From contig CM055108.1 in the NCBI GenBank assembly GCA_029204225.1, forward strand, positions 10,612,461 to 10,676,460: a DNA stretch of 64,000 nt, read 5' to 3'. The notes beneath the pieces are model-generated. The model did no database searches. It saw only the letters and a program-made list of their open reading frames with translations, and was not told where the DNA came from. The stretch comes from Diphasiastrum complanatum. Lineage: Eukaryota > Streptophyta > Lycopodiopsida > Lycopodiales > Lycopodiaceae. A program made the translations under genes and the position numbers. This document shows, piece by piece, positions 13,386 through 46,144 of the stretch (position 1 is the first letter of the stretch; each line of letters begins with the position of its first letter).

Positions 13386-13402
13386 GCATGCTAGCACCAA
13401 CA

Positions 13403-17230: not shown

Positions 17231-17369
17231 TGATATACCATGGCTTATGCCTCTTGATCCTATCCCTTGACTTGAAAGTTGTTAAGATGGAATTGGTCTA
17301 AAGAATGTGAGTGCGCACTCCAAAAGAAGCCTTAGCTCAATCCGCTATTCTAAAACCACCATTTTTCAT

Positions 17370-18960: not shown

Positions 18961-19194
18961 ACTCTTGTATAGTATAAAATAATCTAGTTATATTTTTCAT
19001 TTTGTCTTATAAAATTTAGGCACTAATCCTTTATGGTAGCAAGCGATGTAGACTTTAAGTTTTTCCCTCCCAACCATCAACATTTAATGCAATGGATCGA
19101 GAACCTGACAAGTCCTCCTTACAAAGACAGTATGTAAAGATTCAAGAAAAAGGACCTAGAATACTTTACCCATTAGCACAACTGCTCAACTTGA

Positions 19195-20310
19195 GTGTAC
19201 AAAGTTTTACGTAGAAGACTATTGATTCACTCTAAGGAGTTATGGCAATGGGATAGTACTGATGATGTGTCCTATTTAGCTTTTTTGTGGAGTGAAAAAT
19301 TGGTCAAACGCATCCTTGTGGATTGTGAGTATGAGAAGCCCTACCGATCACGTTACAACTTGGATAGTCCTTTCTTGTACATCAACATAATGACAAACAT
19401 GTTCTATGATGGAGATATTAATTCATGGTGGATTGATAGTGGAGCAAGCTTTCATATGACATGTCACAAAGAGTACTTTACTTCTTTGGTGCCTTGTGAA
19501 GGAGAGAAGAAGGTCATCAACATGGCCAATGGTGGTAAAATTGTTATCAAGGGGATTGATACTATTCCCGTTTTTCTCTCATCTACAAATTGGAATGTTC
19601 ATTTGAAGAATGTTCTGTTCATACCTTCCATTACTAAGAATGTGCTTAGTGTGTGTAAAATGGGATGAAAATGGTTGACAAAGGGTTCAAAGTGGAATTT
19701 GTTGGTGATTCTTGTTTGATCAAAAGGAATGGAGTCTTGATTGCTCAAGGCAAGAGACAAGGTGAGATCTACAAACTTGATGGATTTGTTTGGTTCTAAC
19801 CATGGTTGTTTGAAGACAAAGAAGCAAGTTGGTGAGATCTGTTCAATGTCAAAGTCACAAAGGTTTTCTTATTCTAGATTTAGTCCAAGATCTAAGATGC
19901 CTTTTCATTCAGTACATTTGGATGTGCATTGTACTAGTTCTTTGAGTATTGGAGGAGCAAAGATGTTTGTGACTTGCATCGATGACTTTAGTAGATATTG
20001 TTGGACTTATCTTCTAAAGAGTAAGGATTTCATATTTGATGTCTTTCTCAAGTTCAAGAATGTTGTGGAGAGTCAATTCAACATGAAGATCAAGTGCTTA
20101 AACATGGAAAATGAAGACCTATCAACAAGGTTCAAAAATGTGTGTGGCACATGGGATCAAGAGGGAGCTTTCAAACGCGAAGGTTATACATAGTGTGAAA
20201 GAGAGGAAGACCAGTCTTTTTGAAAGAGCTAAATCCATGAGGGTGAATGTAAATCTTCCTAAGTCTTTTTGGGGGGAGTGCATTAGCTTGATGAAGCCAA
20301 GGCCATCCAA
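19195..20310 (+). pseudogene. copia protease-integrase fragment (unit 1)
   Basis: The first open block reads INSWWIDSGASFHMTCHKEYF (aspartic protease) and PSITKNVLSV. After stops comes a block reading KMFVTCIDDFSRYCWTYLLKSKD and MKIKCLNMENEDLS (integrase core with a decayed second Asp region). A short SFWGECISL then ends the fragment. The zinc-binding GAG-pre-integrase segment is deleted. No gag knuckle, RT or RNase H is present. It resembles the intact element at 47305-51258. It is non-functional. Confidence 0.85.
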
Positions 20311-20319
20311 TTAAAACAG

Positions 20320-20535
20320 AATAGGATGACAAACCAAGAGGTTTGATAACAATAAAATCCATTGTAAAAGGCTTTGCTTGTATGTACATTGTTACATCCT
20401 TTAATTCACCAACAGGCTTTCTTCGTGTCGAATCAACTAATTTGATATGTCTTTGGGTTGGTTGAATATTTGTCAAACCCAAAGCATGAGCCATGTCTTC
20501 CGTTATTATATTGACGCTTGAACTTGAATCGATGG
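20320..20535 (-). pseudogene. gypsy protease fragment, antisense (unit 1)
   Basis: The minus strand reads MAHALGLTNIQPTQ and IDSTRR/VDSTRRKPVGELKD, the flap side of a Ty3/gypsy retropepsin-like protease. It is cut at the tandem junction 20535/20536. The uncut version is at 25705-25290. Confidence 0.75.
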
Positions 20536-23038
20536 GCTACAATGTCTAAGAAATTCTTATGCATACAAGAAAAGTTGTGATATCTGTGGAGTAGAATCAA
20601 ATGTCAATAGAACATGCACCCTAGTTCCTATACAAGCTCAGTTGCCATTTGAAAAGTAAGGAATAGACCTTATGGGAACTGTACACCCTGTCTCATCTCG
20701 ACAAAAATACTATAGCGTAGTTGCTACTGACTATTTTATGAAATGGGCCGAAGCAAGGGCCATAGCTAAAGATAACGTGAAAAAGACTTCCTGTTTTCTA
20801 TTAGAATAGGTCATAGGACAATTTGGTGCTCTAAGGGAACTTGTATCAGCTAGAGGGACCCAATTCTTGAACAAAACTATGAAAGCACTAACTGATCAGC
20901 TGCTAATTAAGCATAGAAAGAGCACCCCTATCTTTCGCAAGCTAACGGAGTGGCCGAGAGCACAAATAAACAACTGTTAGCTATTCTTAGAAAAACTATT
21001 CTTGAGAATCGCGAGACCGGGATAAGAAAATGTATGCAGCCTTGTGGGCCTACAATGTTACTTACAAGACAAGTACTATTCACAATATATGGCTGCTGAT
21101 AGAAATGATTCACTGTGGTCCATGATTTAGGAGAAAGAAAATCCTTACAATAGAGACTAGATACTTTACAAAACAAATGTCAATTGGCTTCCCTAATCCA
21201 CCAAGAATCTTTCAAAAAAAGGATGAAAATCATGATAGGAAAATAATCAACTACAAGGTCACTACAGGATAGCTGCTACTATATGCTATGATATTAGACA
21301 CAAATTGATGCCACAAAAATTTGCAAAGAAATGGAATGGACCATATATTATATAGTGTCTTTATGAGAACAATACAACCAGATTAGCAGAGTTGAACGAG
21401 ACATCATTTGACAAGCTTATCAACATCAACAAACTCAAAGCCTATCATATGTGAATATGGGAAAACTCTTGTATAGTATAAAATAATCTAGTTATATTTT
21501 TCATTTTGTCTTATAAAATTTAGGGACTAATCCTTTATGGTAGCAAGCGATGTAGACTTTAAGTTTTTCCCTCCCAACCATCAACATTTAATGCAATGGA
21601 TCGAGAACCTGACAAGTCCTCCTTACAAAGACAGTATGTAAAGATTCAAGAAAAAGGACCTAGAATACTTTACCCATTAGCACAACTGCTCAACTTGAGT
21701 GTACAAAGTTTTACGTAGAAGACTATTGATTCACTCTAAGGAGTTATGGCAATGGGATAGTACTGATGATGTGTCCTATTTAGCTTTTTTGTGGAGTGAA
21801 AAATTGGTCAAACGCATCCTTGTGGATTGTGAGTATGAGAAGCCCTACCGATCACGTTACAACTTGGATAGTCCTTTCTTGTACATCAACATAATGACGA
21901 AACATGTTCTATGATGGAGATATTAATTCATGGTGGATTGATAGTGGAGCAAGCTTTCATATGACATGTCACAAAGAGTACTTTACTTCTTTGGTGCCTT
22001 GTGAAGGAGAGAAGAAGGTCATCAACATGGCCAATGGTGGTAAAATTGTTATCAAGGGGATTGATACTATTCCCGTTTTTCTCTCATCTACAAATTGGAA
22101 TGTTCATTTGAAGAATGTTCTGTTCATACCTTCCATTACTAAGAATGTGCTTAGTGTGTGTAAAATGGGATGAAAATGGTTGACAAATGGTTCAAAGTGG
22201 AATTTGTTGGTGATTCTTGTTTGATCAAAAGGAATGGAGTCTTGATTGCTCAAGGCAAGAGACAAGGTGAGATCTACAAACTTGATGGATTTGTTTGGTT
22301 CTAACCATGGTTGTTTGAAGACAAAGAAGCAAGTTGGTGAGATCTGTTCAATGTCAAAGTCACAAAGGTTTTCTTATTCTAGATTTAGTCCAAGATCTAA
22401 GATGCCTTTTCATTCAGTACATTTGGATGTGCATTGTACTAGTTCTTTGAGTATTGGAGCAAAGATGTTTGTGACTTGCATCGATGACTTTAGTAGATAT
22501 TGTTGGACTTATCTTCTAAAGAGTAAGGATTTCATATTTGATGTCTTTCTCAAGTTCAAGAATGTTGTGGAGAGTCAATTCAACATGAAGATCAAGTGCT
22601 TAAACATGGAAAATGAAGACCTATCAACAAAGTTCAAAAATGTGTGTGGCACATGGGATCAAGAGGGAGCTTTCAAACGCGAAGGTTATACATAGTGTGA
22701 AAGAGAGGAAGATCAGTCTTTTTGAAAGAGCTAAGTCCATGAGGGTGAATGTAAATCTTCCTAAGTCTTTTTGGGGGGAGTGCATTAGCTTGATGAAGCC
22801 AAGGCCATCCAATTAAAACAGAATAGGATGACAAACCAAGAGGTTTGATAACAATAAAATCCATTGTAAAAGGCTTTGCTTGTATGTACATTGTTACATC
22901 CTTTAATTCACCAACAGGCTTTCTTCGTGTCGAATCAACTAATTTGATATGTCTTTGGGTTGGTTGAATATTTGTCAAACCCAAAGCATGAGCCATGTCT
23001 TCCGTTATTATATTGACGCTTGAACTTGAATCGATGGG
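20536..23038 (+). repeat. tandem unit 2 of 3 (2503 bp)
   Basis: This is a near-perfect repeat of 18033-20535. The junction reads GATGGG/CTACAATG. Unit 2 carries GTCTAAG where unit 1 has GTTCAAG, a change shared with unit 3. An extra A near 21900 breaks the copia protease frame seen in units 1 and 3. Confidence 0.9.
21699..22812 (+). pseudogene. copia protease-integrase fragment (unit 2)
   Basis: Same content as 19195-20310. The protease block WWIDSGASFHM is in a new frame from 21904 because of a one-base insertion, and three bases are missing before KMFVTC. Non-functional. Confidence 0.82.
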
Positions 23039-25528
23039 CTACAATGTCTAAGAAATTCTTATGCATACAAGAAAAGTTGTGATATCTGTGGAGTAGAATC
23101 AAATGTCAATAGAACATGCACCCTAGTTCCTATACAAGCTCAATTGCCATTTGAAAAGTAAGGAATAGACCTTATGGGAACTGTACACCCTGTCTCATCT
23201 CGACAAAAATACTATAGCGTAGTTGCTAGTGACTATTTTATGAAATGGGCCGAAGCAAGGGCCATAGCTAAACATAACGTGAAAAAGACTTCCTGTTTTC
23301 TATTAGAATAGGTCATAGGACAATTTGGTGCTCTAAGGGAACTTGTATCAGCTAGAGGGACCCAATTCTTGAACAAAACTATGAAAGCACTAACTGATCA
23401 GCTGCTAATTAAGCATAAAAAGAGCACCCCTATCTTTCCCAAGCTAACGGAGTGGCCGAGAGCACAAATAAACAACTGTTAGCTATTCTTAGAAAAACAA
23501 TTCTTGAGAATCGCGAGACCGGGATAAGAAAATGTATGCAGCCTTGTGGGCCTACAATGTTACTTACAAGACAAGTACTATTCACAATATATGGCTGCTG
23601 ATAGAAATGATTCACTGTGGTCCATGATTTAGGAGAAAGAAAATCCTTACAATAGAGACTAGATACTTTACAAAACAAATGTCAATTGGCTTCCCTAATC
23701 CACCAAGAATCTTTCAAAAAAAGGATGAAAATCATGATAGGAAAATAATCAACTACAAGGTCACTACAGGATAGCTGCTACTATATGCTATGCTATTAGA
23801 CACAAATTGATGCCACAAAAATTTGCAAAGAAATGGAATGGACCATATATTATATAGTGTCTTTATGAGAACAATACAACCAAATTAGCAGAGTTGAACG
23901 AGACATCATTTGACAAGCTTATCAACATCAACAAACTCAAAGCCTATCATATGTGAATATGGGAAAACTCTTGTATAGTGTAAAATAATCTAGTTATATT
24001 TTTCATTTTGTCTTATAAAATTTAGGGACTAATCCTTTATGGTAGCAAGCGATGTAGACTTTAAGTTTTTCCCTCCCAACCATCAACATTTAATGCAATG
24101 GATCGAGAACCTGACAAGTCCTCCTTACAAAGACAGTATGTAAAGATTCAAGAAAAAGGACCTAGAATACTTTATTCCTTAGCACAACTGCTCAATTGGA
24201 GTGTACGAAGTTTTACATAGAAGACTATTGATTCACTCTAAGGAGTTATGTCAATGGGATAGTACTGATGATGTGTCCTATTTAGCTTTTTTGTGGAGTG
24301 AAAAATTGGTCAAACACATCCTTGTGGATTGTGAGTATGAGAAGCCCTGCCGATCACGTTACAACTTGGATAGTCCTTTCTTGTACATCAACATAATGAC
24401 GAACATGTTCTATGATGGAGATATTGATTCATGGTGGATTGATAGTGGAGCAAGCTTTCATATGACATGTCACAAAGAGTACTTTACTTCTTTGGTGCCT
24501 TATGAAGGAGAGAAGAAGGTCATCAACATGGCCAATGGTGGTAAAATTGTTATCAAGGGGATTGGTACTATTCCTGTTTTTCTCTCATCTACAAATAGGA
24601 ATGTTCATTTGAAGAATGTTTCGTTCATACCTTCCATTACTAAGAATGTGCTTAGTGTGTGTAAAATGGGATGAAAATGGTTGACAAAGGGCTCAAAGTG
24701 GAATTTGTTGGTGATTCTTGTTTGATTAAAAGGAATGGAGTCTTGATTGGTCAAGGCAAGAGACAAGGTGAGATCTACAAACTTGATGGATTTGTTTGGT
24801 TCTAACCATGGTTGTTTGAAGACAAAGAAGCAAGTTGGTGAGATCTGTTCAATGTCAAAGTCACAAAGGTTTTCTTATTCTAGATTTATTCCAAGATCTA
24901 AGATGCCTTTTCATTCAGTACATTTGGATGTGCATTGTACTAGTTCTTTGAGTATTGGAGGAGCAAAGATGTTTGTGACTTGCATCGATGACTTTAGTAG
25001 ATATTGTTGGACTTATCTTCTAAAGAGTAAGGATTTCATATTTGATGTCTTTCTCAAGTTCAAGAATGTTGTGGAGAGTCAATTCAACATGAAGATCAAG
25101 TGCTTAAACATGGAAAATGAAGACCTATCAACAAAGTTTAAAAATGTGTGTGGCACATGGGATCAAACGCGAAGGTTATACATAGTGTGAAAGAGAGGAA
25201 GATCAATCTTTTTGAAAGAGCTAAATCCATGAGGGTGAATGCAAATCTTCCTAAGTCTTTTTGGGGGGAGTGCATTAGCTTGATAAAGCCAAGGCCATCC
25301 AATTAAAACAAAATAGGATGACAAACCAAGAGGTTTGATAACAATAAAATCCATTGTAAAAGGCTCGGCTTGTATGTACATTGTTACATCCTTTAATTCA
25401 CCAACAGGCTTTCTTCGTGTCGAATCAACTAAATTGATATGTCTTTGGGTTGGTTGAATATTTGTCAAACCCAAAGCATGAGCCATGTCTTCCGTTATTA
25501 TATTGACGCTTGAACTTGAATCGATGGG
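23039..25528 (+). repeat. tandem unit 3 of 3 (2490 bp)
   Basis: The third copy of the same unit. It is 13 bases shorter because a short stretch (AGAGGGAGCTTTC region) is lost near 25165. Its end runs on without a junction into the full antisense gypsy protease, so this is the original right edge of the unit. It shares several variants with copy B (for example GATATTGATTC and TATGAAGGAG) that differ from units 1 and 2. Confidence 0.9.
24201..25310 (+). pseudogene. copia protease-integrase fragment (unit 3)
   Basis: Same content as 19195-20310, with DSWWIDSGASFHM open. A 13-base deletion after GTWDQ changes the frame near its end. Non-functional. Confidence 0.82.
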
Positions 25529-27600
25529 CACTTTCTCAATCAAGCATCCAACAATTGTTAAATCAATTTCTGGTGTGCCAAGATCTCCCAGATCAATGGA
25601 CATATCTCGACATCTGGGAAGAAATTGTTTTTTCTTCTTAGAAGAAGTAAGTCTTTTCAATTGCTTACGATAGTAATTGTTGTCAGCCAGTAATTGCTCG
25701 AACATGATATTAGGGTGAAGAGAACCAATGTCGGTAACAATTTCGAATTTGAGATAGGCTTATCAATGATTGCCTCCAAAAGTTTTGTCTTTGCGATTTC
25801 CACGTCCCCTTCTTAAAAAATAACTTAGCTGCATCATGATCGTAATCATGATCAACTTTAAGATCTTCTTTCATTAAGGCTTTACTCGAAGATTTCTTTT
25901 TCGAGGACTTCCTTCGTTTCTTTGAGGGTACTTTCATGTCAGGTTTCGAGGAGCTTTTGCTTCTCGTCGTTACTTTAAACAGCTTCTCGCTCGGCCAAGT
26001 TTGGTCAATTGGCTTTGAATATTTGCCTTCAATGACATCAACCTTCTAGACAACAACATCGGCCAAATATTTTTGTTTCGTATCAACAGTAGCAGCAGGT
26101 GTAGCAACATATTGGTACTTAGGTCGCAGCTTCAACGGTTGTGGACAATCCGGATACTTATGGTCTGGTTCTTTACAATTTGAACATAAAGGAATAAACC
26201 CAATCGATTTTCGTGGTTGTGCACAATCGGGCGAAAAGTGTCTTGGTTCTCCACAATTGTAACAATTTCCCAAAACTTATTTATTCAAACTGGTAGAATC
26301 GACAAATTCTGGTGGGTTATGTCTCTTTGGTACAAACTTGGGTTTGGTTTGTTGAAATTGTGCTGTAGAACCTTGACCATTTGTCGATGCATCATCTAGG
26401 AATATAAACAATACTTCTTGAGAAGAATCTTCAACATATTTGACATTTACATTCTTCTTTAGAATGTCCAGATGCACCGCATTTCGTACACCACAGTCTC
26501 AAATTCGAAGAAGAAGCTTTTAGTCTTTTGTCTACGACTTCTGAAATCTGTACTTTCAAATCGTTGAACTTCTTATTAAGATTAGCCATATTACTCTTTC
26601 ACATCTTTTCAACTTTAGAAAGGATAGACTTATCCTCATAATTTTTATCGCCTTCTTTTCATTTAGACTTTCATTTCTTTCTACGATCAATATCATCAGT
26701 TTCTGAGTCTGATGAATCACTAGAATCAGATTTGGTACTTGAAGAACTTGAACTAGATTCTAATTTAGAGTGATCTTCACTGCCATTGGAATCATGCTTA
26801 GATTTATGTGTACGTCTAGTAGATCGTCTTTTACGTGCTAACTTTGATGTCTCATAATTCTCAACACTTGCTATGACTGTTGTTAAAGAAGTCATATTTC
26901 TTGTCTATAGTATCGGTCAATTTTCGATGGTAAACCTACCAAAATCCACTCGATCTGCATTGCGACAAGATACACACCAGTTAATTTTCCAATCAGATTC
27001 TTTACTTTTGGTGTGTATCTTTGAAGCGATTCTTATTTCTTCTTCTGAATATTATTAAGTCGTCCAAGAATTCTGGACGAATAACCAATTTCTCTAAACT
27101 AGTTTAAGAAGGCATCTTTCCGTAATACCCAGGTGGTGACACGTCCTGGTTCGACTTGACTGTACCATATGCTTGTTTTTTTAGAAGACCAGGAAAAATC
27201 CACAGTTTGTCTGCATCAGCACCTTCGTTATTCGAGTTGGCAATCGACTCGAATTGCGAAACATAACTGTCAGCATCATCTGAAGATGTCCCTTTAAAAT
27301 AATCATATTTGATCTTCGAGATTTAGGTAAAACGAGAAGCAGGGCCTTCCATAATTGGCTCTAGAACTGGATTTGATCAGGCTCTAGAACTGGATTAACA
27401 ACTTCGAAACCTGGATCAGCTGGGGATTCTCCGGATTGATATTTAGAAACGATGCTTCTCCTCTTTGCAAAGATTCCTATAAACTCCTGAAAAATTTGTC
27501 ACGAAGTTTTTGACATCTTTCTAGTCAAGCAGCTCTATTTGACATGCATTGGAGATGAAGATGGAGATGTCAGTTTGCATCAACCTATTTGGCGATCGTT
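25290..27600 (-). pseudogene. Ty3/gypsy gag-protease remnant (minus strand)
   Basis: Reading down the minus strand: a gag region near 27360-27080 (DDADSYVSQFESIANSNNE, FPGLLKKQAYG) and a Ser/Asp-rich linker at 26895-26671. Two CCHC knuckles follow in 26273-26046 (CYNCGEPRHFSPDC and CSNCKEPDHKYPDC), then a Lys-rich segment. A retropepsin-type protease lies at 25705-25290, where the catalytic DSGSS motif reads DSSSS, losing the Gly. Stops and a ~79-bp deletion relative to copy B near 25815 disable it. The order and the tRNA-Asp-like primer site at 27602 suggest a Tat/Athila-like gypsy group. Pol is missing on this strand. Confidence 0.85.
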
Positions 27601-27601
27601 T

Positions 27602-27616
27602 GGCAACGGCACCAAA
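27602..27616 (-). other. primer binding site of the minus-strand gypsy element (tRNA-Asp type, decayed)
   Basis: The minus strand reads TTTGGTGCCGTTGCC, one base from the TGGCGCCGTTGCC primer site common in plant Tat/Athila elements. It sits just upstream of gag on the same strand. The LTR should begin near 27620 (TGGTATATGTTGC) and extend right. Confidence 0.6.
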
Positions 27617-27619
27617 AAT

Positions 27620-28140
<521 letters not shown>

Positions 28141-30199
28141 CTATGGAGCAAACAAACACACCTCTTCAGATTCTTGGTGTGTTGCTCCATTTACAAATTC
28201 TAATTAACAGACAAATTATAAGTACATATAATTTATATAGTTGTCGATTCATTGTGACGATTCAAATCTAGTCGCTTCATATTCCAAGTGTCGTTTCGTT
28301 TCAGGAGGTCATGTCCTTTAATTAAAGACAGGTCCTTAAGCATTTATATCAAAAAATGATATAGGTCTCTTCAAAATATATAATTGTCCAGCACATATCC
28401 TCATTTCTAAGTATAAATTGCCATTTTATAGAAATATGTGGTATCACACATGAGAGTTATTTGTTGTGATACATGCACTTAAAGGAGGCATTACCTTTAT
28501 GGTAGTCAGTTTATAGTGTATACAGATCACCAACCTTTTAACCCAATGATCACATAGTTATTTGATTAGTTAGAAGTTAATAAAAGGACTTTCGACCTTT
28601 TGCAGAAATTAGATGTCGCAAGGCCTAATAGTCAAGTTAGTGAACAAAAACGACTCCTCCCAAATTTCAAATTTCAAATTTCAAATAATAAGGGAGGTGG
28701 AAATTGGCCAATAGGATTTAAGGCCAAAGCCCTAAAATCCACTATATAGAGTAGTGAATTGTAGTTCGTTTCTCACATTCACATGTTCATTTCAATAAAG
28801 CAGATTGAACCTCTTACGGATTGAATTGGATGTCCTTGCTCTTCTTTCTTTCTTCATCTCTCAAGCTTTATTTGGAATTCGCTATTTGTTGGATTTGCTA
28901 ATTATCTCTCTCAATCACTAAATTTCACCTTTTATTTCACAATGAAAGAAAAAAAAAACAATGAATTTTTCACGGTTGACTCCCCAGACATGAAGGATTT
29001 ACTGCCAACTGTTAGATTCTATCAATTTTCACATTGTTTAAGCAATTTGTTTGGAATCTATGTGGATGACCTACATGTGAAATAACACTTGTAATATTCA
29101 GAAATATAGAAGGTCAATACTAACCACCAATGGATAATGTGGCAAATTAGATAGATCTTATCCAAAGTGGATATGGATGAGTACAATGAGTTGTACCACA
29201 CGTGCTGGAAGCAACCTAGAGAGAGATTATGATGATTGTGTACTTGATCCATGATGGATCTATTGTGAGGTTAATCTTGAGAAACATTGATTTGGGAGCC
29301 ATCATTGTGTTTTCACTCTCTTAAGCTAGTTCTTTGTGGATGAATGCTTGGTATTTCTTTAGTAAACATATTTTCTGTTAACAAGCCGTACACATGTTGT
29401 ACTTCAGACGTGTGAAGCCTCTGGATCATCTTTTTTTATTGTTCTTTCTTGGATCAATAGAAATTGTCAAGTAGAAGCTAGAATTGGATGCTAGTCTTGA
29501 TATAGATCAAGATCCCAAGCTACCAATCACTCTAATTAACAATTTGTGGTCAAAATGAGTCCTTAACTCTAAAATTTGACAAACCTCCACTATTGAAACT
29601 CAGCTTCCTTCATACTTGCGCTTCACACAAGAATAGATGATGCATTTTTTTTAGCAAACACTAGTGAATGAGAGCAAGCAGATACTCCATGCATGCTATC
29701 AAGATAGATTCATGCAGGCAGGAAGGTTGGCACAACGAGGCAATTGTGAACATTCCTATGTAGCCCATCTATGCTTGATTTTAGATAAACTATTTAAGTC
29801 TCTGATGCTTGCAAAGATGTCCCATGTTATGATCATAGAGTTATTGGATCACCAACTAGAATGTGCTCATGGGTACTTTTCCAATTGGATCTTCCACAAT
29901 ATTGTGTTTGTTGGTTAGCTAATGGCATCTTGTTTCCACAAACTTGGCAATTGTGATAGCCATTATAGATATGGTCGATTCTTTGAAGGAACATGGTACC
30001 TGTAGGATGGCTATGAAGTGCAAAAGTAATGACACATATAGCTTCTTGTAGAAAGGCAAGAGTACAAATGGTTTGAACAATCATCTACTCATGCTTATGC
30101 CCTACAAGGCAAAGTAGTTCATGATATAGTACGCACAGTTACTTAAAATATGGTATACACAGTAACTGTGACTATGGTGGCATTCACATTAGGTTAAAT
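28141..30199. other. spacer with repeat-like pieces, no gene recognised
   Basis: AT-rich DNA without a convincing coding domain. The CAAATTT-type run at 28669-28690 and a TTCAGACGTGTGAAG near-palindrome at 29403-29417 (as in copia LTRs) suggest decayed LTR material around 28990-29520. Small frames such as 29664-29918 and 30084-29833 show no family I recognise. An inverted repeat CACAGTTACT/AGTAACTGTG with a 17-base loop lies at 30134-30170. Confidence 0.5.
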
Positions 30200-31369
30200 G
30201 TGATACAAAAAATTGAAATTAAGTATCATATCAGAGAGATTTTTAGCGCCCAAGCTTTGAAAATAGCAATGGCAAGGAGACCCAGATCTAAAGTTGAGTC
30301 TGTGATTTTTTACAATGAGAAAGATGAAGTTGATAACTGGAAGCCAACAAAATATACGAAGAATTCATGGGTGTTGCTGCATCCATCATCAAAGGAAAAT
30401 TTCCAACAAAACAAAAGAGCAAAAATGACATACAAATCTTATTGGAAAGCAAAAATTCTGGAGTTTAAGACTACTCCGGGAGATTGATTGATATCAAAAG
30501 TTCTAGTACAACATGTATATATGCATTCAGAAATCAAAGTACATGATATCAATCCTCATGAAAATCGAAAATGTGATTGTAATTCTATCAAAACATGTGC
30601 ACTCTACAACAATCATAGGTGATTTTCTTTATTGATTCTCTTTAAATTATAATTTAAATGCTTCAACATTGTTTTTTTCTTTTAGATTTATATCCATCAT
30701 GCATAAGTGAATGGGAGCCAGCACAATCACTTGTAGGAATATTGGATGTGATTCAGTCTGATGTTGGAAAGCTGCAATATAGAGAAAGAAGTCCAAAGGA
30801 ACTTGTAGATTGTGGTATCTATTTTTATGAAACTTCATATACGCCACAAACAGATGGCAAGCTCAAAGCATTTCCATTGCCTAAGAGTGATGAGTGGCCT
30901 ACTCTTGACAGTATTATTTCTGAATCCTTCAGATGCAAGCTACTCATTGATATTAGAAATGCTATGAAGATAAGCATAGGATCGAAAATTGTTCATCTAA
31001 GTTGGTTTATCTCATTACATATACTTGTTGATTTTTTTTCGAGTGCTAGTGTTCTTAGGACACGAACTTTATTTGTTTGCAAGGATTTATCAGATGAGAC
31101 TTTGTCGGATTTCATGGATCAAGGCTGGGATAGTAAAACAAATAATGACATAGAATGCAGGATTAAAAAGTCTTCAATGATCTTTTGTTATCATATCGAA
31201 AAGCAAATGCTCAGTCTCACATTTAGCTATCAGAGATACAAGAAAATTGAAGGTACATGGCTACCACTGGATCAAGACTTTGAGCAAAATGGTCACTCGA
31301 ACCGAATGGAGATAAGCATTATTTACAATGAAGAATATTTGACTATGGTTGAGGTGGAAGAGCATTAGA
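30200..31369 (+). pseudogene. unrecognised gene-like fragment with plausible introns
   Basis: A frame from 30200 reads MARRPRSKVESVIFYNEKDE onward to 30485. A second open frame, 30658-31368, carries 236 codons with FYETSYTPQTDGKLKAFPLP and FVCKDLSDETLSDFM. A possible 67-base intron (GT at 30619, polypyrimidine tract and AG at 30685) separates them, and a second candidate with GTAAGT lies at 31453-31526. A stop at 30485 interrupts the first exon. No domain was recognised. It could be a decayed host gene or a DNA-transposon gene. The same kind of DNA resumes at 41280 after copy B. Confidence 0.4.
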
Positions 31370-31868
31370 CGCTTGATTTTATCAGAATAGAGCTCATGCT
31401 ATTACAAAGCAATCTACCAACATATTTCAGATTTATCATCAACGGAAGACTCGTAAGTACTCTATGTTTATTGCCATTTCAAAATAGTACAAAATAATTG
31501 AAAATGACATAATTTACAATTGCAGATTCACTAATGTTTGTCATGTCACAGATGCGAAAAAGATAGGAGCTGATAACGTGCTGCAAAGATCTACCTACAA
31601 CAATCACCATTGTGGAAGAACAATAGCTTCAAATAAAGCTTGTAGAAAATCTGTGTATAGACTTTTTCATTCAATAAATCAAAGCCCAAGTTGGGCATCA
31701 GTACATGTATTTTGTGCTCCCAAATTCATAAAATGGAGCAGCATTTGATATATCAATGTATATTTTTCTATGAATTCTATACATGCGCAATTTATTTCTG
31801 TTCTATGCTATCTATATTGTTCTAATCTTTATTTAATATAATTACATCATCCTTTGCACCATCATCAA
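31370..31868. other. continuation of the unrecognised gene-like region
   Basis: It includes the candidate intron 31453-31526 and short open stretches. No family was recognised. It leads directly into the left 155-bp target repeat. Confidence 0.35.
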
Positions 31869-32023
31869 CAACGGGAGGTGAATCCTTGGTATGCTTAGGA
31901 AAATTTATTGTCTAAATCTGTACACCTAGTTTGATGTGTACTCAAGAAGTGTAAACTGCAAGATAGAACATTCATGTATTAGTAATGGCTAAAAAAATCA
32001 ACAAAATAGAAAACTAATCACGA
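31869..32023. repeat. left 155-bp target direct repeat flanking copy B
   Basis: CAACGGGAGGTGAATCC to AACTAATCACGA. The same 155 bases recur at 41125-41279 at a constant offset of 9256, with no indel and two mismatches seen (TTTGATG/CTTGATG and AAAAAATC/AAAACATC). It is absent from both ends of copy A, so it belongs to the target, not to the inserted segment. Confidence 0.93.
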
Positions 32024-32473
32024 ATGGGTTAAGCCTTGGGGAACGTGGCTCTAACTTGTCGGCTGAGTTGGATGGCTTGCTTGGGTGGAAGTTACTTGTT
32101 TATGGCTGTCCAATTTGTAGTGGCGCCAGGTTGGCTTCCAATGCTCGTGACGAAGCTTTGAATTGGTTAAGTCTGATGTAAGTCAGACGACTTGCTTGGA
32201 ATGGATGTTATTCGTTTGTAATGAAGCTTTGAGTTAGTTGAATTTGATGTATGTCGGACAGCTTGCTTGGAGGGAAGTCACCTACATTGGGGCCCCCGGT
32301 CTGGCATGGCGCTAGGTCGGATCTCAATGTTGGCTTCCGAACTTCAAATTTGTTAAGTTTGATCGTTGTTGGCGAGTTGGCTGCTTGTATGTTAAGTGGG
32401 TTTGGACGACAAGAATTGAAAGCCGGGAAGCTAAGTCATGGTTCTCGACTCCCTTTGGGATGCCTGTGCTATA
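32022..32473 (+). repeat. 3' half of a long LTR, truncated (copy B)
   Basis: Equivalent to 12934-13385. It ends GCTATA as in copy A. The start is the copy B breakpoint. Confidence 0.75.
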
Positions 32474-32490
32474 GCATGCTAGCACCAACA

Positions 32491-33232
32491 TATAAGACAT
32501 TTGACCAATAAGCTGAAGTACAAGAATCATTTAAGAAGATGAATTCATATTGTTTGAGTTATTTCAAAGTTACAAGACAACACATTATGAAAAAATATAG
32601 TTCCAAACCACATTAGTGGATGAAATAGATCTTGGGCCAATTCGGTTGCACATCTAGAAATAGCTAGAAGATAGAAATCACTACTTTATGCATGCTAGAA
32701 TTTAGAAATGCACAAAAACTTAGATATGACTTAGAACTATCCCTGTCCATACAATAGCAGTCTGAGTATATTACGTCACACATGTGGATCCAAGATCTAC
32801 AAAATCAATATTCTACACATAGAAAACCAAGATATCAAGAGAGAAACACATGAGATGGACATAGAAACATAAGAGATGAATTCTCCACAATGAAAGAAAC
32901 TATGATGATTATTTCTCCATGTAGGTACAGATATTTATAGCTTTCAAAATATCATTTGGCCACTTGCCCCAAACTTGACCTAATTTGGAAACTTCTCGAT
33001 ACTTCATCAAAAACCTAGAAAATCTAGTCTAGATGCAATGTACCAAAGTTAGCCAATTAGAATGGGTCCAAATCTGACCTCATCTACTTATCCACTTGCC
33101 AAAAATAGTAAATCCAATATTTAGATCCTTATTGAAAAATATGAAACTATCTCTAGGTTGAGATTTCAAGTTGGCCTCCAAAAATGCCAATAAACCAACA
33201 AAACTAACAAAACTAGCTGACAAATTTTTATA
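32491..33232 (-). repeat. minus-strand copia-type LTR (copy B)
   Basis: Equivalent to 13403-14144, with a CACACATGTG near-palindrome at 32777-32786 and the purine tract GAAGAGGGAG at 33242-33233 on the minus strand. The inferred TG terminus is mutated here (TATAAG). Confidence 0.62.
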
Positions 33233-35518
33233 CTCCCTCTTCAACTAGTTTTACCACAAAACTTTGATCCATCTTTATGAATGATCTCCATCCTAAGTAT
33301 ATACCTCCTTCCTATGGTTTTAAAGTAACTTCCATTACTGATATAATAGAGAATAGTGTTTCACTATTGGATGTTTCACTATTTCTTACATCAATTTTGC
33401 ACATCAAGATATAAGTAGAACATGAAGAGCCAAATAGAATGTAAATGTAATGATTCCTCCATGCTTCAAACTTTGAACTCTCTGGAAAATAACAGTAGCC
33501 AAACAATAATTGATAGTTATCATCCAAGCTTGAATGTCTCCTCCATTTTTGTCCTTGAGATGTATCCTCCATGAAAATATATGTATGAGCCTCCATCTCC
33601 ATCTTGCCATAAGATATCATCAACACTTAATGACTTGATCATGAATGAGTGATATAATGAGCCTCCAATAGCTTCATTTTCATCAACAAAACCAGCCAAG
33701 AATGCTAGTACAACTCCAACAACAAGATATTGCAAGACAATGTAGCTAGTTTCACCATATCTAAGAGTTGACAATTTGCACACATTCACATGAAATAGCT
33801 CAAACCTGAGATAGAACAAGTAAAGTAAACTTTAACAACACTTCCTTGCTACTCCCTTGACCCTACTTGAGTCTTCAATAACCTGCAAAAACAAATCCAA
33901 AGTATATTTGCCACTTGACTTCCCTTGTTGCTCTTGACTTCCCTTGTTGACTTTCCTTGTTGCTCTTGACTAGCTCCAAATTGCCACCTTCTCTTTTGTG
34001 TAGTTGAAGCCCTTTGAGATCAACCTCTTGAACTTTCACTTGATCATCAAAGCCATTGAACAAAAAAAAAAGGTTTTAGATTCATTACTTGCATCCATTC
34101 CTTGAAAACCATCGTCCACTTGGGATGGCTATCTTCGGAACTGAAACCCACTGAGCATGGGTGATATCTTGTGTCAGTTGAGTTTTTCTCAAAAGGCAAA
34201 GGACTAGGGTCCTCTTTAGAGATTGGCAACAAGTTAAATCAAGCCAAAATCCTAGTAGATGGAAAGAAAAGTGTTGGAAAGGCTCTTGTTTGAGAACTCT
34301 ACTCTAAGTCCAGTCAACTAATTTTATAAGTGGGAGGAAACTATCACACACACCTCTCCCTTGTTGAAAATCTTGAATGAAAGTTGATCAAAATGGGGGC
34401 AAATTCAAGGTGACCTAGCCATACTCACACGAGTAGACTGGCAAACTCAAGGTGACCTAGCCATACTCACACGAGTAGGGGCAAACTTTGGACCTAATTA
34501 GTTGACAGGTTCTTGTTGTGGAAAGGAAAGCCTGTTATAGGCTTCTCTAGACCAACAATGATGAGGAGACATAATGACTATGCTCACTTGTGTTATGTGT
34601 AAAGCAGCTGATCAACAAAGGAATTGTGAGAGTTGAATCTTGCACGAGAGACATGGTACTTCGAACAAACGCTAAGGGACAGTTCATATTGGAATCGGAC
34701 TACTGCAAACTCTAGGTGCATGTGTCTAATTCAAAGAGAGCTACTTGAAGCCAAGCGAGATGTACACTTCTTGTTTTGACTATGAGGACCACCAGTGATG
34801 GAATTGTGAAATTCATGTTTTGCGTGACAGACATGGTGCTTCAAACAAAAGCGAAGAGATAGTTTGTATGCGAATCAAACTGGTGCGTCCCCTTCGCTCT
34901 CCACTAGGTCAATGGTTACATTTGGGTTGATTCAAAGACAACTACTTCAAGCTAAGTGAGAGGTGCATTGCGGAGTACTCAATCTTTGCCTACCTTAAAG
35001 AGCCAAAAGAAAAAGTATCAAGATCAGGCCGAGACAATGAGATAAATCAAGGTGCAAAAGTAGGGCACAAGGTGGACCATAAAGTGGGCAATCAATGATA
35101 AATCCTTTGGCTCAGGGAGTCCTGATACCTACATAGAAATGATCAAATCTGGAGCTCAAGGAGCTCAACACAATGTGCATCAAGGACATCAGGAGCTCAA
35201 AGCAGTTCCAAAGTCAAAAGTCAGAAGCGAAAGGGGAAACATTTCAACAAAAAGCCTCTATCACTAGTTAATAAGGTTCTTGGGTTTTATGTAAGCGATA
35301 TAAAATCTATGCTTTTCCCAGACAAAGCAATTTTTTCAAGTTATGTAATTTTTCTAAATAAAAAGCTGAGCCTCCGAGTTGTGGTGTACCAACTACAATC
35401 ATAATAAAATGTGGCCAGTAAATTGAGTATTGTGCCAAATAGCTTAAATGTAGTTAATTTTAATTGGGCGGCACCTTTGTTTTAATCTGACATCTGATGG
35501 GGACATCACATTTTATAA
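33233..35518 (-). mobile_element. internal region, non-coding, with antisense captured fragment (copy B)
   Basis: Equivalent to 14145-16418. The LLPIS-EDPS peptide block is at 34232-34047 on the minus strand. A 42-bp tandem duplication (GCAAA-TCAAGGTGACCTAGCC) unique to copy B lies at 34399-34480. No recognisable enzyme is encoded. Confidence 0.45.
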
Positions 35519-35981
35519 AGGTGGGGTGGATGTTGTAAAGCTAGCTTTACAATGCAAGCTTTGCTTCCAGCGCCACTGGCACCAACATTGTTCCCTGGCG
35601 CCGGCAGTGCCACTGCTGCTCCCGGTGCCACCGATGCCACTATGACCAGAATCTAGCCAGCACCAAGTTCCTATAGCTGAAAAACTTTGATCGGTTCTAG
35701 CGAGGTCTAGAGAGCTTGGATCTTTGTGAAATCACCTCACACGATCTAGGCATGATTAAAGGAAGCCTAGGGATCAGTAAATTCTAGAGAGAGAAAACTC
35801 TCTAGAGAGAGAGGTATGAGAGAGAAAATGACTTTCTAGAACACTTGGTATGAGGGGAGGTGGCGAATCCCACCAAAACTGTAGGGGGATGCAAGTTGCA
35901 ACTTAGGGCGAGTCTCAACCAAGTCTCAGCTCCCCTTGCTGGAATGTTATCCTGGCGTCCGCCTTGGCATGCCAGCTTGCC
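35519..35981 (+). repeat. purine tract and 5' half of a long LTR (copy B)
   Basis: GTGGGGTGGA precedes TGTTGTAAAGC at 35531. The LTR half stops near 35981, as at 16893 in copy A. One GGTGTC-region indel distinguishes the copies. Confidence 0.72.
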
Positions 35982-36459
35982 AATGTAGAAAAATCAGCAT
36001 CTACACACAAACTGAGATGAAAACTCTAACAGTACTTGATCAAACATGAATCATAAGATAAAGTATTGCTGATGTCCATACAAAACCAGCAAGATACTGT
36101 ATTTCACAAGTGTGGATCCAAAAATAGTAAATATAGATCATTCTACACATATAATTGCATGCAATCACAAGTATAGTGCACCAATGGATAGTAGAACCCA
36201 AGAGAACCATGTATAAGCATGAAATGAGATATATAAGAGAGAATGATCAAATTAGTTGAATCTTTCACACTACAGTCACTCAACTATGATTCTTCTTAGG
36301 CTCGACCGGATAATATAGATGATATATCATGGCTTATGCCTCCTGATCCTATCCCTTGACTTGAAAGTCGTTAAGATGGAATTGGTCTAAAGAATGTGAG
36401 TGCGCACTCCAAAAGAAGCCTTAGCTCAATCCGCTATTCTAAAACCACCATTTTTCATG

Positions 36460-37990
36460 TTCACCAACAGTGACTGAAATATGTATCAACTATTGTCTAG
36501 CACATATATGGGAAAAAGTCTATCACCCAATTATCATTCATAGGAAGGAAGTGAAGGCATCAGAACTAAACTACACAAAAGTAGGCTTAGCATATGCGGC
36601 AATGAAGTCCCGTCATTACCTCTTGCATAGACGAATAACTTTCTTTACAAAAAGTGAAGCCGTCACCCTATTATTGAATAGGCTAGAGCCACTAAAATGC
36701 CTTATAAAGTGGATACTTTTGTTACAGGAATTCAATTATGATCTATAGAGCAAACCCCCTCGATTAAAAGATTAGAATGATTGTACGTGTGAACTAGGAA
36801 CTCTCACTAGTGACAATGACATTTGGGAAGATGATCGCATGAAGATCTACTGAAGGTCAATATTACCATGATCCCTGAATGGTATGCCAATTTAGCAACT
36901 GACTTATCCACTCTAGAATTACCTAATTCCATGACACCTCAAGAAAAGAGAAAGTTACGATTAAAGCTTTACGTTTCTCATTGATTGGTGGAGCTCTATG
37001 CAAAAAAAGAGTTATATCACCATTGCGTAACCCAGAAGAACCTATGTTCATATTAGAAGGGTTCCATATCTCCGCTTGTGGGATACTGCAAGCTAGATAC
37101 TGGTGGCCTGCAATGTTCAAGAAATTCTTATGAATACAAGAAAAGTTGTGAATCAAATGTCAATAGAACATGCACCCTAGTTCCTATACAAGCTCAGTTG
37201 CCATTTGAAAAGTAAGGAATAGACCTTATGGGAACTGTACACCCTGTCTCATCTCGACAAAAATACTATAGCGTAGTTGCTACTGACTATTTTATGAAAT
37301 GGGCCGAAGCAAGGGCCATAGCTAAAGATAACATGAAAAAGACTGCTTGTTTTCTATTAGAATAGGTCATAGGACAATTTGGTGCTCTAAGGGAACTTGT
37401 ATCAGCTAGAGGGACCCAATTCTTGAACAAAACTATGAAAGCACTAACTGATCAGCTGCTAATTAAGCATAGAAAGAGCACCCCTATCTTTCGCAAGCTA
37501 ACGGAGTGGCCGAGAGCACAAATAAACAACTGTTAGCTATTCTTAGAAAAACTATTCTTGAGAATCGCGAGACCGGGATAAGAAAATGTATGCAGCCTTG
37601 TGGGCCTACAATGTTACTTACAAGACAAGTACTATTCACAATATATGGCTGCTGATAGTAATGATTCATTGTGGTCCATGATTTAGGAGAAAGAAAATCC
37701 TTACAATAGAGACTAGATACTTTACAAAACGAATGTCAATTGGCTTCCCTAATCCACCAAGAAACTTTCAAAAAAAGGATGAAAATCATGATAGGAAAAT
37801 AATCAACTACAAGGTCACTACAGGATAGCTGCTACTATATGCTATGATATTAGACACAAATTGATGCCACAAAAATATGCAAAGAAATGGAATGGACCAT
37901 ATATTATATAGTGTCTTTATGAGAACAATACAACCAAATTAGCAGAGTTGAACGAGACATCATTTGACAAGCTTATCAACATCAACAAAC
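36460..37990 (+). pseudogene. Ty3/gypsy pol remnant: RNase H to integrase (copy B)
   Basis: The RNase H tail is open at 36470-36748 (VGLAYAAMKSRHYLLHRRITFFTKSEAV is split here only for description; key parts are SRHYLL, LLNRLEPL and EFNYDL). Integrase motifs follow: YWWP, GIDLMGTVHP, TDYFMKWAEA and GVAESTNKQL. Compared with copy A, an extra internal stop of RNase H is missing and a ~16-base deletion lies near 37150. Non-functional. Confidence 0.83.
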
Positions 37991-38254
37991 TCAAAGCCTA
38001 TCATATGTGAATATGAGAAAACTCTTGTATAGTGTAAAATAATCTAGTTATATTTTTCATTTTGTCTTATAAAATTTAGAGACTAATCCTTTATGGTAGC
38101 AAGTGATGTAGACTTTAAGTTTTTCCCTCCCAACCATCAACATTTAATGCAATGGATCGAGAACCTGACAAGTCCTCCTTACAAAGACAGTATGTAAAGA
38201 TTCAAGAAAAAGGACCTAGAATACTTTACCCCTTAGCACAACTGCTCAACTTGA

Positions 38255-39370
38255 GTGTACAAAGTTTTACATAGAAGACTATTGATTCACTCTAAGGAAT
38301 TATGGCAATGGGATAGTACTGATGATGTGTCCTATTTAGCTTTTTTGTGGAGTGAAAAATTGGTCAAACGCATCCTTGTGGATTGTGAGTATGAGAAGCC
38401 CTGCCGATCACGTTACAACTTGGATAGTCCTTTCTTGTACATCAACATAATGACGAACATGTTCTATGATGGAGATATTGATTCATGGTGGATTGATAGT
38501 GGAGCAAGCTTTCATATGACATGTCACAAAGAGTACTTTACTTCTTTGGTGCCTTATGAAGGAGAGAAGAAGGTCATCAACATGGCCAATGGTGGTAAAA
38601 TTGTTATCAAGGGGATTGGTACTATTCCTATTTTTCTCTCATCTACAAATAGGAATGTTCATTTGAAGAATGTTCTGTTCATACCTTCCATTACTAAGAA
38701 TGTGCTTAGTGTGTGTAAAATGGGATGAAAATGGTTGACAAAGGGCTCAAAGTGGAATTTGTTGGTGATTCTTGTTTGATCAAAAGGAATGGAGTCTTGA
38801 TTGCTCAAGGCAAGAGACAAGGTGAGATCTACAAACTTGATGGATTTGTCTTGTTCTAACCATGGTTGTTTGAAGACAAAGAAGCAAGTTGGTGAGATCT
38901 GTTCAATGTCAAAGTCACAAAGGTTTTCTTATTCTAGATTTAGTCCAAGATCTAAGATGCCTTTTCATTCAGTACATTTGGATGTGCATTGTACTAGTTC
39001 TTTGAGTATTGGAGGAGCAAAGATGTTTGTGACTTGCATTGATGACATTAGTAGATATTGTTGGACTTATCTTCTAAAGAGTAAGGATTTCATATTTGAT
39101 GTCTTTCTCAAGTTCAAGAATGTTGTGGAGAGTCAATTCAACATGAAGATCAAGTGCTTAAACATGGAAAATGAAGACCTATCAACAAAGTTCAAAAATG
39201 TGTGTGGCACATGGGATCAAGAGGGAGCTTTCAAACGCGAAGGTTATACATAGTGTGAAAGAGAGGAAGATCAATCTTTTTGAAAGAGCTAAATCCATGA
39301 GGGTGAATGCAAATCTTCCTAAGTCTTTTTGGGGGGAGTGCATTAGCTTGATAAAGCCAAGGCCATCCAA
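38255..39370 (+). pseudogene. copia protease-integrase fragment (copy B)
   Basis: Equivalent to 19195-20310, with the protease block DSWWIDSGASFHM open at 38255-38728 and integrase core block CIDDISRYCWTYLL at 38801-39253. Its variants are closest to unit 3 of copy A. Confidence 0.83.
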
Positions 39371-39379
39371 TTAAAACAG

Positions 39380-41126
39380 AATATGATGACAAACCAAGAG
39401 GTTTGATAACAATAAAATCCATTGTAAAAGGCTTGGCTTGTATGTACATTGTTACATCCTTTAATTCACCAACAGGCTTTCTTCGTGTCGAATCAACTAA
39501 TTTGATATGTCTTTGAATTGGTTGAATATTTGTCAAACCCAAAGCATGAGCCATGTCTTCCATTATTATATTGACGCTTGAACTTGAATCGATGGGCACT
39601 TTCTCAATCAAACATCCAACAATTGTTACATCAATTTCTAGTGCGCCAAGATCTCCCAGATCAATGGACATATCTCGACATCCGGTAAGAAATTGTTTTT
39701 TCTTCTTAGAAGAAGTAAGTCTTTTCAACTGCTTACGATAGTGATTGTTGTCAACCAATAATTGCTCGAACATGATATTAGGGTGAAGAGAACCAATATC
39801 GGTAACAATTTTGCATTTGAGATAGGCTTATCAATGATTGCCTCCGAAAGTTTTGTCTTTGCGATTTCCACGTCCCCTTCTTCAAAGGTAACTTTCTTCT
39901 CTGCAGCAGCTTTCTGTAACTCTGATTTGATGACTTCTTTTGCTTCGGCAGAAATATCCTTTGAAAGTAACTTAGTTGCATCATGATCGTAATCATGATC
40001 AACTTTAAGATCTTCTTTCATTAAGGCTTTACTCAAAGATTTCTTTTTCGAGGACTTCCTTCGTTTCTTTGAGGGTACTTTCATGTCAGGTTTCGAGGAG
40101 CTTTTGCTTCTCGTCGTCACTTTAAACAGCTTCTCGCTCGGCCAAGTTTGGTCAATTGGCTTTGACTGTTTGCCTTCAATGACATCAACCTTCTAGACAA
40201 CAACATCGGCCAAAGATTTTTGTTTCGTATCAACAGTAGCAGCAGGTGCAGCAACATATTGGTACTTAGGTCGCAGCTTCAACGATTGTGGACAATCCGG
40301 ATACTTATGGTCTGGTTCTTTACAATTTGAACATAAAGGAATAAACCCAATCGGTTTTCGTGGTTGTGGACAATCGGGCGAAAAGTGTCTTGGTTCTCCA
40401 CAATTGTAACAATTTCCCAAAACTTATTTATTCGAACTGGTAGAACCGACAAATTCTGGTGGGTTATGTCTCTTTGGTACAAACTTGGGTTTGGTTTGTT
40501 AAAATTGTGCTGTAGAACCTTGACCATTTGTCGATGCATCATCTAGGAATATAAACAATACTTCCTAAGAAGAATCTTCAACATATTTGACATTTACATT
40601 CTTCTTTAGAATGTCCAGATGCACCGCATTTCGTACACCACAGTCTCGAATTCGAAGAAGAAGCTTTCAGTCTTTTGTCTACGACTTCTGAAATCTGTAC
40701 TTTCAAATCGTTGAACTTCTTATTAAGATTAGCCATATTACTCTTTCACAGCTTTTCAACTTTAGAAAGTATAGACTTATCCTCATAATTTTTATCACCT
40801 TCTTTTCGTTTAGACTTTTGTTTCTTTCTACGATCAATATCATCAGTTTCTGAGTCTGATGAATCACTAGAATCAGATTCGGTACTTGAAGAACTTGAAC
40901 TAGATTCTAATTTAGAGTGATCTTCACTACCATTGGAATCATGCTTAGATTTATGTGTACGTCTAGTAGATCGTCTTTTACGTGCTAACTTTGATGTCTC
41001 ATAATTCTCAACACTTGCTATGACTGTTGTTAAAGAAGTCATATTTCTTGTCTATAGTATCGGTCAATTTTCGATGGTAAACCTGCCAAAACCCACTCGA
41101 TTTGCATTGCGACAAGATACACACCA
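39380..41126 (-). pseudogene. Ty3/gypsy gag-protease remnant, truncated (copy B)
   Basis: On the minus strand the Ser/Asp-rich linker lies at 41042-40746 and the two CCHC knuckles at 40420-40193. A Lys-rich segment lies at 40120-39780, and it keeps the ~79 bases lost in copy A. The protease lies at 39773-39380, with DSSSS in place of DSGSS. Gag is cut at 41126 by the insertion junction. The protease frame is open for 180 codons but lacks a normal active site. Confidence 0.84.
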
Positions 41127-41279
41127 ACGGGAGGTGAATCCTTGGTATGCTTAGGAAAATTTATTGTCTAAATCTGTACACCTAGCTTGATGTGTACTCA
41201 AGAAGTGTAAACTGCAAGATAGAACATTCATGTATTAGTAATGGCTAAAAACATCAACAAAATAGAAAACTAATCACGA
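41125..41279. repeat. right 155-bp target direct repeat flanking copy B
   Basis: Matches 31869-32023 without indels. It continues directly into TTCCAAAAATAAG at 41280, which is the natural continuation of the target sequence. Confidence 0.93.
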
Positions 41280-42310
41280 TTCCAAAAATAAGAATAAACA
41301 AAATTAATTACCTTCGAAATATCAACATCCTCCTGAAGTTTGAACCACTCAAAAAATAATCTTGCATTATATAAAGTGTACCACCCACAACTGAATCAAT
41401 CATTTTGCTAGGGTGACTGCAAAAAGATTCAACAAACAAGACATTGAATTCTCTGACTTTGTAGATTTTGAAACAGATGACTCTGTTGCTAGAGTTGATT
41501 ATGATAATGAGAAGGGACTTATGATCGGTGAAGAGTGGTTGACTAGGACTTTATCAAATATTGTTGAGCATGGACGAGGCAGACCATCCGATGAAGAATT
41601 CACTGTATTTCAATCCTAGATGGGCTTCCCTCATCCATCATTAATGCATTTCACAAATGATTCTACTTCAGTAGGTGGTCATAATATTGATCATCCTGAT
41701 CTGGTTGCCGCTGATGATGAAGAATGTGTAAGTGTTTAAACTTCCTTGCATTAGAATGTTCTTAACTGCTGAATGTATTTTTTTTCAACATATTTTTTAT
41801 TGCAGGATGCTCTCATAATTGATGACTTTGCTGCGAGATGAGGTGGTTACAAACAACATGCATCCTCGTTCCAGAGGGATAGTGGACTTGGCCACTAGCT
41901 TAGGCATTTTCTGAAGAATGAGATATGTATTGCTCATTCGAAGAATAAGATCATTTTCGTCAAAAGATCTTATGTTTTGAACATTCTAGGTTTTACAGAT
42001 GAGAATGTTCCTTTAAGGTGCTCCCATTATTCATTACACTCTACTTATATTGAACTTAGTGGAAATAAGGATAATGCACATCTATTACATGCAAACTCTA
42101 GCAGAGAATTTCTTCATGACAATACAGCCATATCTTCAAGATATTGCCCTTCATAGATTAGCAAGTATTAGTGTTTATGTAGGGCCTAGTCATATATCAC
42201 CGTGATCCACTTTATATAATCTAATCCAACATGATGCCAAATTTGAACTTGGCATGAGAGCATATTTGATTTCAAACAATTGGTAGAGCCAATAGACTTT
42301 CTTGCATTCT
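41280..42310. pseudogene. unrecognised gene-like fragments with candidate introns
   Basis: On the plus strand a 68-codon frame at 41413-41619 (MTAKRFNKQDIEFSDFVDFETDD) is followed by more open sequence. A candidate 78-base intron, GTAAGT at 41728 to TTGCAG at 41805, joins DDEEC to DALIIDDF. On the minus strand an open stretch at 41394-41312 (TLYNARLFFEWFKLQEDVD) ends at a GTAATT donor, with a TTGCAG acceptor at 41212, inside the duplicated target. No protein family was recognised. In-frame stops (for example at 41617) suggest decay. Confidence 0.4.
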
Positions 42311-46132: not shown

Positions 46133-46144
46133 TGGTATCAGAGC
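46133..46144 (+). other. primer binding site, initiator-Met tRNA type
   Basis: TGGTATCAGAGC directly after the LTR terminal CA, with no spacer. It primes minus-strand cDNA synthesis. Confidence 0.93.

Follow-up and report, generated by a model that had tools for sequence, protein, structure and literature searches.

The copy of a retroelement mosaic that lies between two direct repeats of about 155 bp in Diphasiastrum complanatum was most probably produced by two separate joints, namely a deletion joint and then an illegitimate joint that gave an adjacent duplication, so that the 155-bp repeats would not be a target-site duplication. We place the probability of this account at roughly 0.7. 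The account draws on what was directly observed in the assembly: the two joints and the places where they occur, the arrangement of four related loci, a tree of the copies and the contiguous relatives of the sequences involved. These observations suggest that ordinary cut-and-join rearrangements formed the two edges of the copy on separate occasions.

Under this account, an ancestral locus (F) would have carried, in this order, the left flank of copy A, the block, the rightward continuation of A, the left part of a transposon, the 155 bp and the right part of the transposon. A deletion of about 4.9 kb, comprising the continuation of A and the left part of the transposon and sealed at a 2-bp overlap, would have created joint 1 and thereby a locus C with the order A-left flank, block | 155 bp, transposon-right, whose copies would then have spread as segmental duplications. 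Later, the 155-bp end of the F arrangement would have been joined to a C-type block at its position 12934 (joint 2), again with 2 bp of overlap, either by illegitimate unequal exchange (end joining between two chromatids) or by a replication template switch. The adjacent duplication left by this step would read A-left, block A, A-right, transposon-left, 155 bp | block B | 155 bp, transposon-right. The 155 bp would thus represent the transposon stretch between two independent breakpoints, its length being set by the distance from the exit of F to the restart of the C deletion, and a homologous exchange would have given the left 2.4 kb of A their likeness to B and C. From the comparisons presented below we infer which kinds of event took place and in which order, that F was one locus, and how the ends were joined.

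Anatomy of the locus

Positions marked w are those of the window, the whole stretch of 64,000 nucleotides that we analysed (C17:10612461-10676460 of the 1.74-Gb assembly, which comprises 5,176 contigs). The segments w31866-32023 and w41122-41279 were direct repeats that aligned without gaps over 158 columns with three differences, two of them within the core of about 155 bp and the third in the edge overlap, in agreement with the original prediction of repeats on both sides of B with two mismatches and no indels. The interior (copy B) aligned to w12934-26979 (copy A), which upheld the claim that B duplicates A; the left part (7,660 columns) contained 121 mismatches and 140 gap bases, and the right end (1,163 columns) 29 mismatches. 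The repeats and the duplication are genuine, and a chance origin is excluded. The coordinates of all features are collected in Table 1.

Table 1. Features of the duplicated locus, in window coordinates.
Feature	Position	Strand	Remarks
First unit of the adjacent duplication (comprising copy A, the sequence that continues it to the right, transposon-left and the left 155-bp copy)	12934..32021	+	19,088 bp; B starts immediately after, at 32022
Copy A of the block, F-type apart from the left 2.4 kb	12934..26979	+	Sole F-type among 7 mosaic carriers; site patterns
Stretch of A resembling the B and C types, probable gene-conversion tract	12934..15301	+	Site patterns; left edge blurred
Three tandem 2.5-kb units of A (B and C1: one)	18029..25529	+	Middle unit hybrid between units 1 and 3
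Rightward continuation of A, missing in B and the C copies (lost at joint 1)	26980..30122	+	39 other scored family members cross 26979/26980
Target transposon, left part, left end truncated	30123..32021	+	Relatives align from 30123/30124 and extend further left
155-bp repeat, left copy	31868..32021	+	At neither differing site in the common family state
Joint 2: 155-bp end to block position 12934, GA overlap	32020..32023	+	2 places in the assembly
Copy B of the block, with a single 2.5-kb unit	32022..41126	+	Alignment to A
Joint 1: block position 26979 to 155-bp start, CA overlap	41125..41126	+	Found 7 times in the assembly, once with 1 mismatch
155-bp repeat, right copy	41125..41279	+	Common family state at both differing sites (23/26 family rows)
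Target transposon, right part	41280..42132	+	Internal deletion of ~3 kb at 41444/41445 relative to fuller relatives

Pfam analysis of the ORF pieces of the block returned a copia Pol_BBD match, a weak aspartyl protease match (0.008) and others at 0.03-0.06; among the pieces scanned near the right breakpoint, no Pfam support was obtained for the proposal that this breakpoint lay within gypsy gag. The Rfam search and the tRNA search gave no matches. The window also contained copia elements and a class-3 lipase ORF, as would suit a plant.

The 155-bp sequence and the two joints

The proposal that the 155 bp were sequence of the surrounding locus proved correct, as they lay inside a high-copy transposon. 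When the left repeat was searched against the assembly, 1,242 candidates were obtained, and among the 40 that were scored nine matched at 98-100%, two of them located at joint 2 and seven at joint 1; none of the other scored matches exceeded 96%, the best of them covering part of the length. We fetched 29 relatives (L009-L028 and L030-L038, the latter set found via the left flank; L009 and L030 denote one place). A single 155-bp copy with both flanks contiguous for at least 30 bp on each side was present in 21 of the 29, and in 20 of these 21 the contiguity reached at least 100 bp on each side; the other eight had lost one flank within or near the repeat. Regarding the concern that the sequence might be a dispersed repeat that was already tandem, it was therefore dispersed and, in those 21 relatives, single. 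The orthologous empty locus with one repeat copy was not found, and the 21 relatives holding a single 155 bp are paralogous transposon copies. Because the repeat is internal to a larger transposon that continues on both sides in these relatives, both a new mobile element with 155-bp ends and LTR-like ends of B were rejected.

In the family alignment, 22 of the 26 rows aligned over all 158 columns, each spanning 168-169 bases, and both window repeats lacked about 10 bp present in the relatives, indicating that they come from one original transposon copy. Each of the two bases particular to the left repeat occurred in one of the 26 rows. The clearest unexpected find of the analysis was a histone H3-like ORF, located in the target transposon family.

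The joints were then considered individually. Joint 2 (155 bp | block), which was searched for in the whole assembly using a 32-base pattern spanning the joint and allowing at most two mismatches, was found in window copy B and in one further copy, B2 (C17:10933349(-)). The pattern of joint 1 (block | 155 bp) occurred at seven places: window B, B2, C1 (C17:10767867(-)), C2 (C17:10960607(+)), C4 (C17:10839774(-), with one mismatch), C3 (C1097:30666(+)) and C24:4060011(-). Reversed control patterns for joints 1 and 2 gave no match in the assembly. Thus, five of the seven places carried joint 1 without joint 2, and the two joints do not always occur together. The ragged breakpoints with overlaps of about 2 bp that had been described were confirmed at both joints, and their break-repair appearance was supported; two-base overlaps are weak evidence on their own and fit end joining.

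At C1, C2, C3 and C4 (all four loci examined), the block was continued on its left side by A's own left flank, present from w12897 back to roughly w11500, instead of by the transposon. At these loci (C17:10767k, 10951k and 10839k, and C1097) the flank came with about 70 bp that A lacks, and in C1 and C2 the flank was followed to w7747 in sampled stretches. The interior of C1 was read fully and those of C2, C3 and C4 near their ends only, with lengths that fitted the block and a 3.9-kb deletion in C3. In the C24 copy the block ended after about 90 bp.

The order found in A was contiguous across w26979/26980 in 39 other members of the repeat family (40 scored of 1,775 candidates, ranked by score over the whole query, which favours contiguous members), and LTR relatives within the window crossed 12933/12934, C1 matching one of them from further left. 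The order of A is therefore original at both block ends and that of the transposon at both 155-bp ends, so that both joints of B are derived.

Relationships among the copies

To place B among the other copies, a tree was built from w38905-41126 of five sequences (A, B, B2, C1 and C4) under the HKY model, with A as the outgroup. Among the variable sites of two states, B, B2, C1 and C4 stood together against A at 46, and seven sites grouped B, B2 and C4 against A and C1 with no conflicting site (bootstrap 100/100 for B+B2+C4). Seven sites were specific to C1, two to C4 and two to B2, and C2 and C3 sided with C1 where they were read. The transposon flank to the right of the repeat agreed, since B differed from C4 at 3 of 1,278 sites and from C1, C2 and C3 at 11-14 of 1,358. 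On the right (w38905-41126 and the right flank) the nearest relative of B was consequently C4 and not A; in the left 2.4 kb B was close to A too. Divergence between B and C4 was lower on the right (5 in 2,593 and 8 in 1,921 columns) than on the left (8/1290), and some degree of homogenisation between them, which would weaken the nested tree, is possible; extensive homogenisation would leave room for the insertion reading with later A-by-B recombination that is discussed below. B and B2 differed by 26 mismatches over 11.2 kb. Since it falls within a group of copies that possess joint 1 and A's left flank but lack joint 2, B would, on the simplest reading, descend from a C-like ancestor that gained joint 2 later; most simply, then, its right joint appears older than its left joint.

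The history of A was examined through a search with w16900-17500. Among the 40 scored of 3,047 candidates, seven places carried the mosaic, the one on C1097 partly, and the six other than A were about 98% identical to A, which was the only carrier of its own type. A second F-type locus, or F without B, was not found among these 40 or among the 40 scored of 1,775 matches; a single-unit F ancestor could be lost, polymorphic or unscored. In the left block, 53 A-specific sites lay to the right of 15302 and three to the left (Fisher p 2.5e-11, using rounded site totals), eight A-specific indels were located to the right of w15316, and the switch of relationship was sharp, falling between 15301 and 15316. 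Over the left 2.5 kb (2,489 sites), the differences were 5+11 between A and B, 5+21 between A and C1 and 11+21 between B and C1. Between w14361 and 15301, where A, B and C1 were compared, A shared the state of B at 14 sites at which C1 differed and that of C1 at one at which B differed, and at five left-end sites A shared the state of C1-3 against B and C4. These site patterns suggest that the low-divergence stretch of A is probably a gene-conversion tract, and a patchy one.

The left flank of A was distinct from those of the C copies (18-25 of about 1,387 sites), with 25/1383 differences between A and C4, 18/1387 between A and C1 and 9/1389 between C1 and C4. The left flank of A being farther from C4 than those of C1-3 are, a one-event takeover of the left part of A from a C4-like chromosome was dropped. 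Within the 2.5-kb units of A, the left of the middle unit matched unit 3 and its right matched unit 1, a pattern that fits what an unequal crossover would leave. Hybrid products of unequal crossing over have been described in wheat (PMC6097286).

One of the copia elements (w45479-51907), flanked by a 5-bp duplication (TGATA), was absent from C4 and C2, which showed clean empty sites, and its presence in B2 was inferred from the collinear spacing of sampled stretches. Its LTRs differed at 5 of 653 positions, compared with 21 of about 5,804 between B and C4, a difference that was not significant (p 0.18), and the suggestion that these LTRs were too diverged for the B-C4 split was withdrawn. This element neither supports nor upsets the order of events.

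Alternative readings and comparison with known systems

The original prediction, in which B was inserted once and 155 bp of its target were thereby duplicated, did not find support, given that joint 1 stood alone at four loci with A's flank and that B was nested in the tree. In its fuller form, this reading supposes a break in the transposon, its ends staggered by about 155 nt, that was filled in and repaired using a copy, 9.1 kb long, of the A block 19 kb away; the C loci would be later recombinants between A and B. It would yield the same final anatomy, with the same target sequence to the left and right of the insert, and recombination of A with B that deleted the intervening DNA would give exactly the C order. 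However, it predicts that the joints occur together, which was not observed, although later loss of joint 2 by recombination is conceivable, and it requires that the C copies arose twice or were homogenised with B. It also makes A the presumed donor, yet the nearest relative of B on the right was C4. Moreover, A and B were 1.6-2.5% apart in the F-type parts, which would make joint 2 old, and yet it was present in B and B2 only. C1 carried none of the eight A-specific indels to the right of 15316 and, in the left block to the right of 15434, it sided with B at 51 sites where A differed and with A at 11 where B differed, so that any A-by-B crossover would be confined to the left end. A simple origin of C by recombination between the A and B copies of the window was likewise disfavoured, as C1 was not closest to A in the left 2.5 kb and B was nested among the C copies. 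Altogether, we regard a single insertion as unlikely; if true, both its filler and its target duplication (about 155 bp) would be unusually long.

Processes that would suit such an insertion have been described. Synthesis-dependent patching of plant breaks with filler DNA has reportedly been treated by Wicker et al. 2010. The available accounts of filler DNA made by synthesis-dependent repair of plant breaks (PMC4423477, PMC3445842) resemble the present locus in having a repeat-derived segment between duplicated flanks and short overlaps at the joints, and differ from it in that joint 1 occurred here without joint 2 at five of seven places. For rice, patch-mediated tandem duplication (Vaughn and Bennetzen 2014, as summarised in PMC7407515) involves asymmetric nicks that are proposed to duplicate the target. 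The resemblance lies in this proposed duplication; the insertions in that summary measure 10-1000 bp, in contrast to the 9.1 kb found here, where two separate events were probably involved.

A single MMBIR-like replication-repair event with several template switches, in which joint 2 and a homologous switch near 15301-15316 arose together, appears improbable. The sharpness of the switch in A and the 2-bp overlap of joint 2 would suit it, but it predicts that the left flank of A is closest to C4, which was contradicted by the distances given above, and a separate conversion tract therefore fits better than one hand-over. Finally, an artefact of collapsed or misjoined repeats deserves very little credence: the region is repeat-rich and B2 contains a cluster of about 25 small indels with the look of local sequencing error, but misassembly is unlikely because joint 2 recurred at a second place and joint 1 at six further ones, and the flanks of these places differ.

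In contrast, the account of a deletion joint followed by an adjacent duplication agrees with the second unit starting where the first ends and with the GA overlap, itself weak alone, while the loss inside the second unit is independently attested by the C-type loci (joint 1 together with A's left flank) at four of the seven joint-1 places. A close analogue is described for maize centromere 10 (PMC4806543), where an adjacent duplication of 22.7 kb starts within a retrotransposon CDS and stops inside an LTR. It shows internal deletions and a 5-nt repeat at the joint, and alternative end joining was proposed as its cause. In both cases one short sequence (5 nt in maize, 2 nt here) recurs at the joint and at the outer ends of an adjacent duplication; unlike in maize, the second unit described here has a deletion joint common to other loci, so that the 155-bp end flanks B twice.

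The locus is probably a commonplace rearrangement scar, ordinary in kind though intricate, and it gives no pointer to a new class of mobile element. Two ordinary joints in nested repeats, probably of different ages, can mimic a long target-site duplication, and scans for insertions that rely on flanking direct repeats should test whether each joint stands alone elsewhere in the genome.

A histone-fold reading frame in the target transposon family

The high-copy dispersed transposon that holds the 155-bp repeat (window pieces 30123-32021 and 41280-42132) carries, within its fuller members, an antisense ORF with two Pfam Histone matches (1.1e-10 and 6.8e-6). The best solved-structure matches of this ORF were histone H3 (3.7e-11) and a centromeric H3-like protein (0.0016). 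Using tblastn, we detected the ORF in 20 out of 29 fetched loci of the family, several of them short, and did not find it inside the window. Among the titles listed by one literature search, none described a histone-fold ORF in such a transposon.

Coordinates of the ORF and of the repeated structures in the window
Feature	Location	Strand	Details
Histone-fold ORF	L014 (a fetched locus of the family):4680-5810	minus	Pfam Histone and structure matches
Full-length copia element	window 45479-51907		1,322-aa ORF at 47290-51258; TGATA duplication
Tandem array	window 18029-25529		three copia-derived 2.5-kb units
Inverted arms	window 4380-6752		a pair of 1.1-kb arms that are 94% alike and separated by about 125 bp

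Segmental copies around the window

Segmental copies were clustered over about 0.3 Mb (10.64-10.96 Mb of C17, CM055108.1) in both orientations; beyond this cluster, one further copy lay on C1097, an unplaced contig, and C24 carried a fragment. The copy resembling copy B at C17:10933349 (minus strand), B2, presented around C17:10931868-10933500 some 25 small indels of 1-3 bp each across 1.2 kb, which were absent from copies A, B and C1. This indel cluster is probably a local sequencing error in the assembly.

Repeated structures inside the window

The LTRs of the copia element differed at 5 out of 653 sites, every one C/T, and sites empty of this element were found at copies C2 and C4. Copy A starts in an LTR, and the inverted arms were related to this LTR. 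In the tandem array, the middle unit was a hybrid of the two outer units, a pattern such as unequal crossover would leave.
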